NCBI GenBank assembly: GCA_934547065.1
Contig: CAKTEF010000003.1
Coordinates: forward strand, 51,664-115,663
Direction of reading: 5' to 3'
DNA length: 64,000 nucleotides
Source of the DNA: an uncultured Faecalibacterium sp.
GTDB lineage: Bacteria; Bacillota; Clostridia; Oscillospirales; Ruminococcaceae
Shown here one piece after another: positions 58,196-64,000 of this stretch. The position numbers and the translations under genes are program-made. How positions within the stretch are numbered: the stretch's first letter is position 1; every line of letters starts with the position of its first letter. The notes under the pieces are model-generated. The model was not told the DNA's origin, ran no database searches, and saw only the letters and a program-made list of their open reading frames with translations.

Positions 58196-60154
58196 TCAGG
58201 CTGCGTCGATCAGCTCCTCCGGATCCTCGATGGCTTCTTCAATGATCTCGTCCGTTTGCGGTGCATCCGCGGCTTCCGGTTTCAGCAGGCGCTCCAGCAG
58301 GTCACGCAGGCTCAGCAGCTCCTCGTCGGTCTTGGCGTTCTGTGCCAGAAGCGAGCGGACCATGTCGGGTTTGTCGGTGATCAGATCATCCACGCCCAGT
58401 TCCAGCATGTGGGAGGCATCGGATTCGCGGTCGATGGTCCAGGCGGAAACCGTCTTGCCCCGCAGATGGACGGCGTTGACCATGCCGGAGGTGATGAACG
58501 TGTTCTCCACGCTGAAAAAGTCCGCAGCGGGCAGGTCATAGTAATTGCCGACACCCAGCGCCAGGATATAGCCGGTCGGGATGTCCGGGGCCAGTTCCTT
58601 GACTTTGCACAGGCACTCGTAGCTCTGGGAGGTGATGACGCAATTGGACGCGTCAAAGCCATATTGGCGCAGCAGGCGCACCGTCTCGGCTTCCAGGGCG
58701 GGGGTGGCAGAGCTTGGCTTGATCTCCACGTTCAGACCGATCCGCCCCTGGCAGAGCCAGAGTACTTCCTCCAAGGTGGGGATGCGGGTGCCGGTGAAGC
58801 GGCTGCTGAACCAGCTGCCGGCATCCAGCTGCTTGATCTGGGCCAGCGTCAGGTCGTAGACTTTTGCATTTTTGCCGGTGCAGCGCTTCAAATTGGTGTC
58901 GTGGGTCACAACAGGGATGCCGTCCTTACTCATCTGGACATCCAGCTCGATCCGGTCGCCGCCCTTGAGGATGGCCGAGCGGAATGCGGGGATGGTGTTC
59001 TCCGGGGCCACGGTGCAGTCGCCCCGGTGGAACGTGACCAAAGGCGTGATGCCGCCCACCGCCGTCAGCAGGGCATCGCCCTCCGGCAGGCGGAACAGAT
59101 ACCAGGCGGAAAGGCAGCTGACCAGCGTCACCCCGCAGACCATGCCTGCCAGCAGCAGGCGGCCGCCGGAGCGCCAGCGCCTGCCCGGAGGAACAGATTC
59201 CGGTTCCCGATCGGTGGTGCGGTCATACAACAGGCCGATCAGGGTGCATTGGGCTGTGATGATCCGGCACTCCAGCAAAAAGCCGAGGGACGGCAGCTCC
59301 ACGGTGAGCATGGCGCGGGAGAACAGCAGCATGGCGCGGGTGCTTTGCAGCCCGATCAGGGCGGCAGCCCCCTCCAACAGCGCATACGCGGCCAGGTACC
59401 ACAGGGCTGCCCGGAGCAGGACCCCGATATTCCACCGCACCAGGAGCGCTGCCAGCCGGAAGAACCGTTGGCGTACCCACGCCATGCTCCGGCGGACCGC
59501 CGGGCCGAAATCCTTGCGCTCTACCGTGAAAAGCGGCAGTACCAGCACCCAGCAGACCGTCAGAGCGATGGCGGCGGCAAAGATCAGCAGATACAGTGCA
59601 AGGTACGCGGGCTTTGCCCGGATCACGCCCAGAAGGTATTCCGGCACCGCCAGCTGGGTGATATAGTTGGAGGTGACGAACGGGTCTGTGAACGGGATCA
59701 GAACGGCGCAGTAGAACAGCACCGGCCAGTTCCTGGGCAGTACGGCGTGGCGGATATCGGCCAGCGCGTGGAAAAACAGCGGCCGCATCCGGATCTTCTC
59801 GCCCCGGCGGGCCAGGTCGATGCCGTGCAGCACCAGCGAAAACTCGTACAGGGTCCAGAACGCCGCAAGCACCGCAATGAGCACGATGCCGCCCAGGATG
59901 GTGGGGGAAGTGAAGATCTGGTGGGCGTTGTTGTTGGTCAGATAGTTGACCGGCGAGAACCGCAGTGTCAGCCCCCAGATGCCGTGCATCGCGGGGATGA
60001 ACACGAGATTCGTCAGGATCTTATAGAGCAGAACCGCTGCAAGGATGGCCGTTTCGGCCCGGTGCAGCAGGGCGCGCCCCTGGCTGCGGATGCTGCGGTA
60101 GGTTTTGCGGGCCTGATGCAGCGCGGAAAAGGAAATATTCAATTTGGATTCCAC
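58196..60154 (-). CDS. Membrane-anchored glycerophosphodiester phosphodiesterase
   Basis: 652 residues. The first 360 residues hold about eight membrane helices of the GDPD membrane domain; the catalytic domain follows with FHRGDCTVAPENTIPAF (about 372, active-site His and Arg), ELDVQMSKDGIPVVTHD with the metal ligands, and NVEIKP. An acidic C-terminal tail ends the protein. It cleaves glycerophosphodiesters or lipoteichoic acid glycerophosphate outside the membrane. A TATACT (60212-60207, minus) gives a plausible -10. Confidence 0.9.
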   Translation of the reverse strand: MESKLNISFSALHQARKTYRSIRSQGRALLHRAETAILAAVLLYKILTNLVFIPAMHGIWGLTLRFSPVNYLTNNNAHQIFTSPTILGGIVLIAVLAAFWTLYEFSLVLHGIDLARRGEKIRMRPLFFHALADIRHAVLPRNWPVLFYCAVLIPFTDPFVTSNYITQLAVPEYLLGVIRAKPAYLALYLLIFAAAIALTVCWVLVLPLFTVERKDFGPAVRRSMAWVRQRFFRLAALLVRWNIGVLLRAALWYLAAYALLEGAAALIGLQSTRAMLLFSRAMLTVELPSLGFLLECRIITAQCTLIGLLYDRTTDREPESVPPGRRWRSGGRLLLAGMVCGVTLVSCLSAWYLFRLPEGDALLTAVGGITPLVTFHRGDCTVAPENTIPAFRSAILKGGDRIELDVQMSKDGIPVVTHDTNLKRCTGKNAKVYDLTLAQIKQLDAGSWFSSRFTGTRIPTLEEVLWLCQGRIGLNVEIKPSSATPALEAETVRLLRQYGFDASNCVITSQSYECLCKVKELAPDIPTGYILALGVGNYYDLPAADFFSVENTFITSGMVNAVHLRGKTVSAWTIDRESDASHMLELGVDDLITDKPDMVRSLLAQNAKTDEELLSLRDLLERLLKPEAADAPQTDEIIEEAIEDPEELIDAA

Positions 60155-60325: not shown

Positions 60326-60466
60326 ATGACCGTTCCGGAGCGGCTGAAACGCGCAAAACCTTATGATACTGGCGGTCCCGGCGGCGATTGCCGGGGCGTA
60401 CGCTGTCACCCTGGAAAAGTTGCGGAAGAAACAAGGCAAGCCTGCCTGTCCGTGCTCATACAGTAG
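60326..60466 (+). CDS. Possible small ORF upstream of sigK
   Basis: 46 codons with a strong GGGGAGGAA 6-14 bases before the ATG. The product is basic and Gly/Cys-containing with no recognisable family. Another frame from 60363 gives a hydrophobic start resembling small Cys-ended membrane peptides, so a frameshifted small gene is possible. Confidence 0.3.
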   Translation: MTVPERLKRAKPYDTGGPGGDCRGVRCHPGKVAEETRQACLSVLIQ

Positions 60467-60483: not shown

Positions 60484-60825
60484 ATGCTGTTATCCTTGCT
60501 GCAATTCTTTGCCACAAAGTTTCTGGTGCTGGCGCTGCATCTGGAAGCCGGAAGCTTCCCAAAGCCGCTGAACGCGCGGGAGGAGATCGAAACATTTGCG
60601 GCCCTGCGGGCCGGGGACCGGAGCGCGCGGGAAAAGCTGATCCGCCACAATTTGCGCCTGGTGGCACATGTGGCAAAAAAATACTACGCCCAGCCTACCG
60701 AACAGGAGGACCTGATCTCCATTGGGACCATCGGGCTGATGAAAGCGGTCGATACCTTTGATACGACCCGCAAAGCCCGCTTTTCAACCTACGCCAGCCG
60801 CTGTATTGAAAATGCGATCCTCACC
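60484..60825 (+). pseudogene. sigK: 5' part of RNA polymerase sigma-K factor gene, interrupted
   Basis: About 112 residues resemble mother-cell sigma-K: hydrophobic start LLSLLQFFATKFLVLALHL, FPKPLNAREE, LIRHNLRLVAHVAKKYY (sigma-K LRLVAHIVKKF, not the sigma-E LRLVVYIARKF), DLISIGTIGLMKAVDTF and TYASRCIENAIL. Similarity stops there, within region 2, and the frame runs on to a stop at 60936 with unrelated residues. Regions 3 and 4, needed for -35 recognition, are missing. ATG 60484 follows AGGGGG. The break coincides with the recombinase element, as in Bacillus where spoIVCB is the 5' sigK half. Confidence 0.85.
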
Positions 60826-62571
60826 CGAACGAACGCCGGACGGAGGAGCGGAACCATCTCCACCGCCCTCGGGGGCGTTCTCGTCCTTTTCCGGGTCTAC
60901 CGGGAAAGTGGTCCAGTCGATTTCATCCTCCGGTGAGCCGAAGAACACCACATGCGCTGCCTTGCCGTCCCACACCACCTTGCGCACCACGGTGCGGATG
61001 GCAGCGCGTTTCTGGGTCACGGTCATATCGTCGATGCTGTCGTGGAACACGGCCAGCAGCTGCCGCAGCAGGTCGAATTCCATCCCTGCCAGAACGCCTT
61101 CGTCTGTAAGGCGTTCCAACTCCTGGATGCGGGAGCTCAGGGCGGCATCCTGACCGTTCAGTTCCTCGATGCGTTTTTTCAGGTGGACGGCGGCGGTACG
61201 GTCGCCGAAATCTGCCAGCGAATCAATCAGAGCGGTGATCTTCCGCTGCGTCTCCGCTTGCTCCTTGCGCAGGGCAGAAAGCTTGGTCTCACACTCGGAG
61301 CGGTTGCCCGCATGGGCGGACCGTGCCTTTTCCAACTGCTTTATAAAGTCGCTGGAATGGTCGGCAAGATGCTTGACCTGTTCACAGATGGCGGCATCCA
61401 ACAGATTGCCATTGGCATTGGGGACGCTGCAAAGCTCCCGGCGGCTGCGCTCCTTCAGCTTGCACAGATAGGGGAAAACCACCTGCCCGTCGGCAGTTTT
61501 GCGCCCGGTGACCTTGGGGTACATCCGGCTGCCGCAGGAGCACCACAGCAGACCGGTGAGCAGCGCCTCGTTGCCGCGGGATGCGTGGTAGGCCTTGGAT
61601 TTGTTCCGCTCCAGCGATTCCTGCACCCGGATCCACCGGTTGGAGGAAATGATGCCGGGGTGTTCGCCCACCGAAACGATCCACTCGTTGATGGGGTTGT
61701 AGACGGTGGCACGACCCTTTTCCTGATCGCTGCGGTTGTAGGCAAGCACGCCCCGCACACCGTCAAAATCGGACTCCGGGGAGAACAGCTCTGCTTCGTT
61801 GTCCACAAAATACTGATAGGCATCCTTGTCCGCAATCAGGTAGACGGGATTCTGCAAAATAGACTTGATGGAAAACCGGGTAAACGAACGCCCGGTTTTT
61901 GTTTGGATGCCCTGCCGCAGCAGCTCGGTCTCGGTCATGGTCAGGGAATCGTACTGCTCGTAAAGATCGAAAATTTTGTAGATGATCTCTGCCTCATCCG
62001 GCAGCAGCTTGAGCTTGCAGGCCTTTTTGGTCTTGCCGTCCACCGTGATGCTCTTGACGCTCTCGGAAGCATAGCCCGTGGGGGTCGTGCCGCCCAGCCA
62101 GCGCCCGGTCTTTGCCAATTCGTGCATGTTGTCCCGGATACGCTCTGCGATGGTCTCACGTTCCAGCTGACTGAACACCGATGCGATGTACATCATCGCG
62201 CGGCCCATGGGGCTGGACGTGTCAAAACTTTCACGGATGGACACAAAGTCGATGCCCAGCCGTCCCAGTTCTTCAATCAGGCTGGAAAAGTCGCTGATGT
62301 TGCGGCTGATGCGGTCCAGACGGTAGACCACAATGGCCTTGAATTTCCGGTCCTTGGCCGCAGTCATCATCTTTTTGAAGTCCGGGCGGTTCAGGTTGCC
62401 GCCGGAAAAGCCCTCGTCCTCAAAGACAACGGCATGTTCCGCGGCGGCATCTCCGTAGTGGGTGCGGATATATTCGCGGCAGAGGTCGATCTGATTTCCG
62501 ATACTTTCGCCCTTGCCGGTATAGCGGGATTTGCGGGAATAGATGGCAATGGTGTCGGCAGTTTTGGCCAT
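60784..62571 (-). CDS. Large serine recombinase (SpoIVCA-like)
   Basis: 595 residues. Resolvase domain at the N-terminus: IAIYSRKS with the catalytic Ser, VYRLDRISRN and MGRAMMYIASVFSQLERETI. A recombinase domain (about 165-280), a zinc ribbon (GLLWCSCGSRM ... YLCKL ... LCSV), a coiled coil (about 400-460) and a helical end follow. Such enzymes integrate or excise elements at specific att sites. ATG 62571 follows AGGAAAGGAG. The last 12-13 residues (DRIFNTAAGVG) are read antisense through the sigK fragment, so the natural C-terminus probably differs on the excised circle. Confidence 0.93.
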   Translation of the reverse strand: MAKTADTIAIYSRKSRYTGKGESIGNQIDLCREYIRTHYGDAAAEHAVVFEDEGFSGGNLNRPDFKKMMTAAKDRKFKAIVVYRLDRISRNISDFSSLIEELGRLGIDFVSIRESFDTSSPMGRAMMYIASVFSQLERETIAERIRDNMHELAKTGRWLGGTTPTGYASESVKSITVDGKTKKACKLKLLPDEAEIIYKIFDLYEQYDSLTMTETELLRQGIQTKTGRSFTRFSIKSILQNPVYLIADKDAYQYFVDNEAELFSPESDFDGVRGVLAYNRSDQEKGRATVYNPINEWIVSVGEHPGIISSNRWIRVQESLERNKSKAYHASRGNEALLTGLLWCSCGSRMYPKVTGRKTADGQVVFPYLCKLKERSRRELCSVPNANGNLLDAAICEQVKHLADHSSDFIKQLEKARSAHAGNRSECETKLSALRKEQAETQRKITALIDSLADFGDRTAAVHLKKRIEELNGQDAALSSRIQELERLTDEGVLAGMEFDLLRQLLAVFHDSIDDMTVTQKRAAIRTVVRKVVWDGKAAHVVFFGSPEDEIDWTTFPVDPEKDENAPEGGGDGSAPPSGVRSGEDRIFNTAAGVG

Positions 62572-62730: not shown

Positions 62731-62893
62731 ATGTTTGACTATTTCTATGGGCAGTCGGGCGAGATGTTCTCGTATTTCCGGGTGCCCAAAATTTTATTCC
62801 GGGACATACGATTCAAAGACTTGTCCACCGATGCAAAGACCCTGTACGGTATCCTGCTGGACCGCATGGGACTATCCGCTAAAAACGGCTGGT
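62731..62893 (+). pseudogene. Truncated RepA N-terminal-type replication initiator
   Basis: The first 54 residues, including YFRVPKILFRD, RFKDLSTDAKTLYGILLDRM and SAKNGW, are the RepA-N domain of plasmid and conjugative-element initiators, which normally continues with a winged-helix region. Here similarity stops abruptly near 62893 and the frame continues to 63093 through scar sequence and a terminator. GAGGAAG lies before the ATG. Remnant of a mobile element. Confidence 0.8.
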
Positions 62894-62975
62894 TAGGGTC
62901 AGCTGTTGATATATGCCGCCCTTTCCTGTATACTGTTCTTGTTGTAGTTGCTTTTTCACAATCTCAGCTTACAAC

Positions 62976-63056: not shown

Positions 63057-63887
63057 TTATCCCCGTGCATCCTGCCGGGTGGTGCTGAAATAGGCCTTGG
63101 GGGTCATGCCGTACTCCTTTTTGAAGGCGCGGAAAAAGTGGTTGTAGCCCCCAAAGCCGCTTGTTTTGTAGACCTCGGTGATGGGCAGCCCCTGCTCGAT
63201 CAGGGTGCAGCAGCGGTCCAGCCGGGCTTTTACGATGTAGCGGTGCACCGTCTGCCCGGTCTGCCGCTTGAACTCCCGGGCGATATGCTCCCGGGAAACA
63301 AAAAATTCCTTTTCCAGCCGTTCCAGTGTCAGCTCCTCGGTGAGGTGGGCCTGGATAAAAAGGAACACCTCGTCCAGCATCAGGTGGTGGCGGCTGACCG
63401 ATGCGGTGTGGAACTCCGCATGGATGCAGGCACGCAGCGCCAGCACCACAAACATTTGCAAAATACCGTGCTCGAACACCGCTGCACCGAACTGGGTGCG
63501 CTCCTGCGGGAGCATCAGCAGCTTCCGGGCAAGGTTTTTCAACAGCATATAGATCTGGCTGTCCGGGCGGACGGCTACCTGATGGAACGGCACCACGTTG
63601 AAGCTCTTTTCCAGGTCGGTGTCCGCATCCGATAAAAGCGCCAGCGCCTCCGGGGAGAGCTGTACCCGGATAAGCTCCAGCGGGCCGTATGCACCGGGGT
63701 ATTCCAGCCTGCCGCCCTGACCGGGCTTGAAGATGATCAGGTTCTGCTGCTGGGCGGGCAGCACCACATCGGGGCAGCGGAACACGCCGCTGCCCCGCAT
63801 GACCAGAAACAAATCATAATACGCGCCGGAATAAAATTCCCGGATGGCGCTCTGCTCAAAAAAATAGCGCTTGGCTGTATAATTCAC
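63057..63887 (-). CDS. AraC-family transcriptional regulator
   Basis: 276 residues. An N-terminal cupin-like sensing domain (about 1-140) is followed by two helix-turn-helix motifs in the last 100 residues (LEKEFFVSREHIAREFKRQ and ITEVYKTSGFGGYNHFFRAFKKEYGMTPKAY split between them). Such regulators usually control carbohydrate use. I chose GTG 63887, 6 bases after GGAGGAG; ATG 63902 lies within that site and lacks its own. Target genes would lie upstream, beyond the window end. Confidence 0.85.
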   Translation of the reverse strand: MNYTAKRYFFEQSAIREFYSGAYYDLFLVMRGSGVFRCPDVVLPAQQQNLIIFKPGQGGRLEYPGAYGPLELIRVQLSPEALALLSDADTDLEKSFNVVPFHQVAVRPDSQIYMLLKNLARKLLMLPQERTQFGAAVFEHGILQMFVVLALRACIHAEFHTASVSRHHLMLDEVFLFIQAHLTEELTLERLEKEFFVSREHIAREFKRQTGQTVHRYIVKARLDRCCTLIEQGLPITEVYKTSGFGGYNHFFRAFKKEYGMTPKAYFSTTRQDARG

Positions 63888-63917
63888 CAAAAACTCCTCC
63901 ATGAAACTGTCAGATGC

Positions 63918-63955
63918 AACAGTTTGTTGTACACAACAGAAAAGTACAACTGTTA
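63918..63955. promoter_or_regulatory. Palindromic sequence upstream of the AraC gene
   Basis: AACAGTTTGTTGTAC (63918-63932) and GTACAACTGTT (63944-63954) are inverted. A TATAAC -10-like box on the minus strand overlaps the right end. Candidate operator for autoregulation. Confidence 0.4.
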
Positions 63956-64000
63956 TAATTGCATAATACATCAATTTGCGATAGTTTTCAATCATTTTTT

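Follow-up and report, generated by a model that had tools for sequence, protein, structure and literature searches.

We analysed a 64-kb window (64,000 nucleotides) of contig CAKTEF010000003.1 from an uncultured Faecalibacterium species, the window being the whole stretch of DNA under study, in which sigK, the gene for the late mother-cell sigma factor, stops halfway and gives way to an island carrying a large serine recombinase (Table 1). The open reading frame (ORF) at this place (60484-60936, plus strand) encodes 150 amino acids (aa), of which only the first 110 residues are sigK-derived. Sigma-70 region 2 lies within these residues, and in a profile search with them the top models were those of SigK (NF004471, 131 bits; TIGR02846, 125 bits over profile positions 2-114), the scores falling below the whole-protein cut-offs as expected for half a protein. 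The 40 residues beyond CIEN (60813) are the antisense strand of the 3′ end of the recombinase gene; given this tail and the existence of intact alleles, the possibility of a complete short protein was rejected. The recombinase combines Resolvase, Recombinase and Zn-ribbon domains (Pfam) with a long C-terminal region, matches the phage integrase family phrog_95 (PHROGs) and has the TP901-1 integrase as its best PDB sequence match. An earlier note on this DNA had described exactly such a pair, a sigK N-terminal half ending at CIEN-AIL and a large serine recombinase convergent to it, and both descriptions held. The final 9 codons and stop of the recombinase (60784-60813) are supplied by sigK, so its C-terminus is altered by integration or excision.

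Table 1 Features at the interrupted sigK locus (positions within the window)
Feature	Position	Strand	Basis or remark
Membrane glycerophosphodiester phosphodiesterase, host flank, left of sigK	58196..60154	-	Domain search
Predicted SigE/SigK-type -10 box of sigK, CATACAGT	60457..60464	+	Putative promoter; 27 bp ahead of start codon
sigK 5′ half, residues 1-110, last residues CIEN	60484..60813	+	SigK-like; hydrophobic N-terminus
Large serine recombinase, 595 aa	60784..62571	-	Domain and profile searches
Core AAAT, sigK/island junction (attL)	60810..60813	.	Junction comparison; crossover put within AAA
Island DNA translated as 40-aa tail of truncated 150-aa product	60814..60936	+	Begins with attP arm GCGATCCTCACCC
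Truncated replication initiator RepA_N, 58 aa remaining (319 aa in G517)	62731..62904	+	Domain search, comparison
AraC-family regulator, possible island cargo	63057..63995	-	Domain search; 92% homologue in G500

The missing half of the gene was sought across the 31 genomes of the genus of G463, a genus that is probably Faecalibacterium by protein identities. An N-half was present in 28 genomes and absent in three, and 13 of the 28 carried an interrupted copy: eight had the split copy only (G463, G491, G493, G495, G501, G504, G509 and G517) and five had split and intact copies together (G490, G497, G502, G505 and G515). The other 15 had an intact copy only, one of them, G503, with an extra C-half. 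In five of the eight split-only genomes, the 3′ half lay on the same contig and strand, 19-53 kb away; in G491, a single 3.1-Mb contig whose recombinase is 93% identical to that of the window, the distance was 52.5 kb. Both halves were full length in four of these five pairs, and joining them at the core gave in-frame products of 231, 227, 226 and 226 residues in G491, G501, G463 and G504. Five relatives, including one whose 3′ end is truncated, thus show the arrangement of a skin-type element: a coding region interrupted, its halves on one strand and its frame restored on joining. An element-borne large serine recombinase beside the junction and a short common core between inverted repeats complete this arrangement. 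In G499, one of the genomes without an N-half, the C-half starts at a contig end, at the recombination core (L252, G499:C93), as if the assembly had broken between two alleles.

Comparison of the junctions gave the left boundary (attL) as GAAAAT followed by GCTATCCTC(T/A)CC... and the right boundary (attR) as ...GAGGATAGCAAA(T/C) followed by GAG; the attR form expected for the window strain is GGATAGCAAA(T/C)GAG, and G463 deviates somewhat, with TAGCGAATGAAC at attR. The short common core that the earlier note had proposed to look for emerged as AAA(T/C), flanked by inverted repeats at the element ends. Because the left-hand core ends in T and the right-hand core in C in G501 and G517, we place the exchange within AAA. 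In the window and G491, the recombinase occupies the left end and converges on sigK; in G501, G517, G463 (50% identical) and G504 (68%), it occupies the right end and reads into the C-half. Its copies at sigK in G491, G501 and G517 are 93.3, 93.7 and 95.0% identical to that of the window. When aligned with the G517 island, the islands of G491 and the window run on the minus strand and those of G501, G490, G515 and G502 on the plus strand. By these alignments, islands of a single type, their recombinases 93-95% identical to that of the window, sit at one core in both orientations; a convergent recombinase is not diagnostic, being one of two orientations found.

The G517 island measures 30.2 kb; over 13-20 kb, its DNA is 94.7-97.4% identical to that of the islands in G515, G502, G491, G501 and G490. 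The sigK N-halves of G490 and G517 are 82.8% identical, so in this pair the island is more alike than the gene it interrupts. We infer from this that the island has spread horizontally between species; the G515/G517 pair, with sigK 94.5% identical, is uninformative on transfer.

Subsequently, occupied and empty alleles were compared at the protein level. The split 150-aa form retrieved at least 120 relatives, all listed ones of split type and 88-97% identical, in a ranking that favours this type since the query includes the tail; two of those listed are named F. prausnitzii. The intact G503 sigK also retrieved at least 120 relatives; among the listed matches, 119 were intact by their junction residues and one (P0169) lacked the junction motif used, and P0123, among the matches identical to the query, bears the name F. 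prausnitzii. From the matches listed, 239 readable proteins gave 71 distinct N-halves; six N-half haplotypes were found in split as well as intact form, and for 36 of the 38 split N-halves an intact protein agreed at 107 or more of 109 residues. The window N-half itself agrees with intact P0224 at 108 of 109 residues. By these protein-level identities, the site is occupied in some strains and empty in others that probably belong to one species.

The break point recurs beyond the genus. In the wider family, 150 of 197 genomes matched and 27 had open frames of at most 180 aa; 20 of these were fetched, six others were left out and G463 was treated within the genus. All 20 fetched genes break at CIEN or a near variant (CIEK, CVEN, CIQN), which argues against chance as the source of the CIEN-AIL break. 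An N-half search of genome contigs, whose best 80 matches were mostly unrelated sigma factors, was used only to pick genomes. Viral contigs contained 41 loci with recombinase relatives, four of which (L081, L082, L083 and L084; 43-63% identical) adjoin sigK halves with the same junction motifs. Pattern scans for attP and attL covered viral contigs only; the attL pattern matched seven, with sigK in L292 and L297 only, and the other five, which lack sigK, were taken as chance.

Genomes bearing both a split and an intact copy add a further layer. At the right end of the island in G490 and G515, a truncated recombinase (residues 1-104 and 1-107 plus 221-267 in G490 and G515) is followed by a sigK with its own promoter, its N-half joined to the C-half exactly at the core, and the split N-half persists at the left end. 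The right end in G514 is the same, without the split copy. G502 and G505 hold split and intact copies 31 kb and 102 kb apart with no recombinase of this family between them, relatives reaching at most 21-23% identity. With G497 left out of the recombinase assessment (two contigs), a full recombinase was absent from the split site in all four assessable genomes with both copies; conversely, none of the five genomes with a full recombinase at split sigK had an intact copy. We give no p value for this pattern because the genomes are related. Within a genome, the N-half copies differ at 0 (G490), 4 (G515), 11 (G502), 19 (G505) and 9 (G497) of 327 nt. Crossing over of an excised chromosome with an unexcised one would yield the split-plus-intact arrangement; import of an intact allele is an alternative origin that stays open. 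Upstream of sigK in G517, G515 and G514 (L240, L235-L237 and L243), an apparent short recombinase coding piece stands just before the promoter, which suggests earlier rounds of insertion and rebuilding.

Genome comparison shows one exact insertion site with empty and occupied alleles, near-identical islands across species in both orientations, halves kept open in most pairs and intact sigK where the recombinase is gone. We consider it very probable, on this comparative footing, that mobile serine-recombinase islands, functionally skin-like, use sigK as their attachment site. The earlier note's suggestion of a skin-like element using sigK as attB is supported by the same-strand 3′ half in five of eight split-only relatives, the common core and the in-frame joining. 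The recombinase would have joined island attP (arms ...GGATAGCA and TGCTATCC...) to sigK attB (TTGAAAATGAG) at the AAA core, leaving the promoter-bearing 5′ half and the 3′ half on opposite sides; the same recombinase, together with a directionality factor, would excise the island and restore a full SigK-like sigma factor in frame. The island presumably moves and excises today.

Several results weigh against this reading. The earlier note had proposed to look for a sigK 3′ half in the same orientation, which was found in relatives but not within the 64-kb window (best C-half match E 0.9). At E<=1e-20, no 3′ half was detected in G495 or G509, and that of G493 was partial and on a different contig; in G517 the joined halves amount to 208 residues, the 3′ end being short by about 15 residues. 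Only two of the 20 fetched wider-family stretches had a recombinase relative beside the 5′ half (49% and 33% identical); in the other 18 it may lie at the opposite end or be unrelated. At the remaining 37 of the 41 viral-contig loci, a sigK half was not seen. Nor did the viral contigs scanned contain a recognisable excised circle; three matched the attP pattern and, as none encodes a related recombinase, were taken as chance. No directionality factor was identified, and no search aimed at one was made; those of known elements all differ from one another (PMC10747680). Intact P0224 reached 228 of a cut-off of 252 and 214 of a cut-off of 298.65, with SigK models ranking first, so that the full-length protein is, by its sequence, SigK-like, a divergent SigK. 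Furthermore, profile searches found alpha/beta small acid-soluble spore proteins (SASP) in none of the 31 genus genomes.

A rival reading is that of a selfish island parked in a nearly neutral gene, with sigK decaying after loss of sporulation. The missing SASP, the scores of SigK, SigG and SpoIIID below their curated cut-offs, the many broken sigK copies and the truncated 3′ half in G517 would all fit. Selection on sigK speaks otherwise: the ratio of nonsynonymous to synonymous polymorphism (pN/pS) was 0.196 for eight split-only and 0.200 for eight intact N-halves (one per cluster), and 0.263 for five split and 0.307 for eight intact C-halves, although these are between-species values that may predate the splits and thereby count less for the attachment-site reading. 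The motif CATAnnnT lies 27-60 bp ahead of the start in all 34 N-halves (mean 1.3 and maximum 6 in shuffled sequence), which comprise 28 genomes, five second copies and the window and are related in sequence. In C. difficile, SigE and SigK promoters have similar -10 elements, and sigK is preceded by a SigK -10 box, CATATAAT (PMC3789822). With the promoter box kept, and intact sigK present in all four assessable genomes in which no full recombinase accompanies the split copy, the parked-island explanation appears rather unlikely. The decayed relic of lost sporulation that the earlier note had offered was rejected, the halves being full length and open in four of five pairs, under purifying selection between species and with their promoter box.

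That note had also presumed a non-sporulating host, a premise that the data do not support in this plain form. The lack of SASP agrees with it. Against it, the Spo0A C-domain (64 bits in G492, at least 125 in the others) and SpoIVA (588-702 bits) exceeded their cut-offs in all 31 genomes, with B. subtilis the sole positive for either among 14 control genomes. Full-length SigG-like matches occurred in 29 genomes (334-379 bits, none over the cut-off of 457), in a search also positive in 10 of the 14 controls, including non-sporulating ones, and a SpoIIID-like domain in 26 (93-102 bits, none over 111.5), with partial or weak matches in three more. The genus thus retains Spo0A, SpoIVA and most SigG-like and SpoIIID-like genes despite the missing SASP. 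That absence is not unique to it, since just 8 of 20 wider-family genomes outside the genus have alpha/beta SASP. Published accounts disagree on F. prausnitzii, which is described as non-spore-forming in PMC9229247 and listed among spore-formers in a review (PMC8953710).

In view of the SigG-like and SpoIIID-like genes and the retained CATAnnnT box, we infer that excision could be timed by the mother-cell programme. A developmental switch proper, in which sigK is expressed only after mother-cell-timed excision in one cell type, as for skin, is possible though doubtful: the mother-cell-type -10 box in every N-half, the sporulation genes just listed and the full-length halves favour it, whereas the missing SASP, the SigG and SpoIIID matches all below curated cut-offs, the directionality factor neither found nor specifically searched for, and the description of F. 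prausnitzii as non-spore-forming (PMC9229247) do not. Moreover, intact alleles are common, which makes such a switch dispensable. A broader proposal, that a functional mother-cell programme of sporulation origin persists in Faecalibacterium and that sigK is turned on there when a horizontally spreading island is excised, is less likely still; if true, intact sigK beside recombinase-dead islands would be evidence of selection for sigma-K output, and a developmental gene rearrangement would exist in a genus regarded as non-spore-forming. An irreversible chance rearrangement, to which the single junction visible in the window, the truncated adjoining repA and the lack of sigK synteny with G491 could point, is highly improbable because the same codons, the same core and related recombinases recur in many species.

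The skin element of B. subtilis, a defective prophage and resident element with the recombinase SpoIVCA, splits sigK at about the same codons, and its recombinase lies beside and convergent to the sigK 5′ half, as in the window and G491. Both have a short core and inverted repeats (PMC5025042). Unlike skin, the island described here is common to several species, polymorphic, present in both orientations and housed in a genus described as non-spore-forming. The C. difficile element skinCd is likewise a serine recombinase element in sigK, whose recombinase CD1231 integrates alone and requires its directionality factor CD1234 for excision (PMC5025042); by analogy, the same kind of mechanism is expected for this island. 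It differs from skinCd in having recombinases 93-98% identical at one core in both orientations and no directionality factor found, no search having been aimed at one. The alignment of the N-terminus here with the SigK model starts at position 2, and C. difficile SigK is described as lacking a pro-sequence (PMC5025042). The phages MMB025 of Alicyclobacillus and PhiS63 of C. perfringens also combine a sigK attachment site with inverted repeats and a short core (PMC13141910), yet they are infectious, whereas a PHROGs scan of seven G517 island proteins gave no convincing structural phage gene, a weak portal-protein match being the NUDIX protein. Among the same seven, the RepA_N protein matches the phage helicase-loader family phrog_7882 (185 bits). 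A phage origin of the island thus stays open.

PMC5025042 and PMC13141910 describe sigK-intervening elements in B. subtilis, C. difficile, C. tetani and C. perfringens, together with a sigK prophage in Alicyclobacillus; in the open-access literature searched, an interrupted sigK in Faecalibacterium did not turn up. As far as that literature goes, the host group, the sharing of one island family by several species, its presence at one core in either orientation, the empty/occupied polymorphism and the intact second copies beside recombinase-dead islands appear to be new. Among human gut commensals, Faecalibacterium is very abundant. The lesion in its late mother-cell sigma factor is polymorphic and apparently reversible, which makes it testable whether sporulation is lost, hidden or reused; the natural series of both orientations, empty and occupied sites and intact target copies lends itself to work on the origin of skin elements, and the recombinase and its sites are a candidate site-specific integration system for Faecalibacterium.

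The cargo of the G517 island comprises NUDIX, Fic and macro-domain proteins, an adenine deaminase, a MerR-TipAS protein and a PLD-helicase scoring as a type IV restriction enzyme. A MobA/MobL relaxase inside the G491 interval possibly derives from a nested element; no systematic search for relaxases or conjugation genes was made. The G463 island (L226/L227, G463:C12, about 426-440 kb) contains a BREX-like set of brxL, pglZ, brxC (C-terminal part) and brxP with a DndA/SspA-like cysteine desulfurase. In G491, the homologue of the phosphodiesterase flanking sigK in the window (69%) lies about 0.8 Mb from sigK, so sigK is not syntenic between the two. In G500, island remnants lie upstream of sigK, and the AraC homologue stands about 0.5 kb from them.
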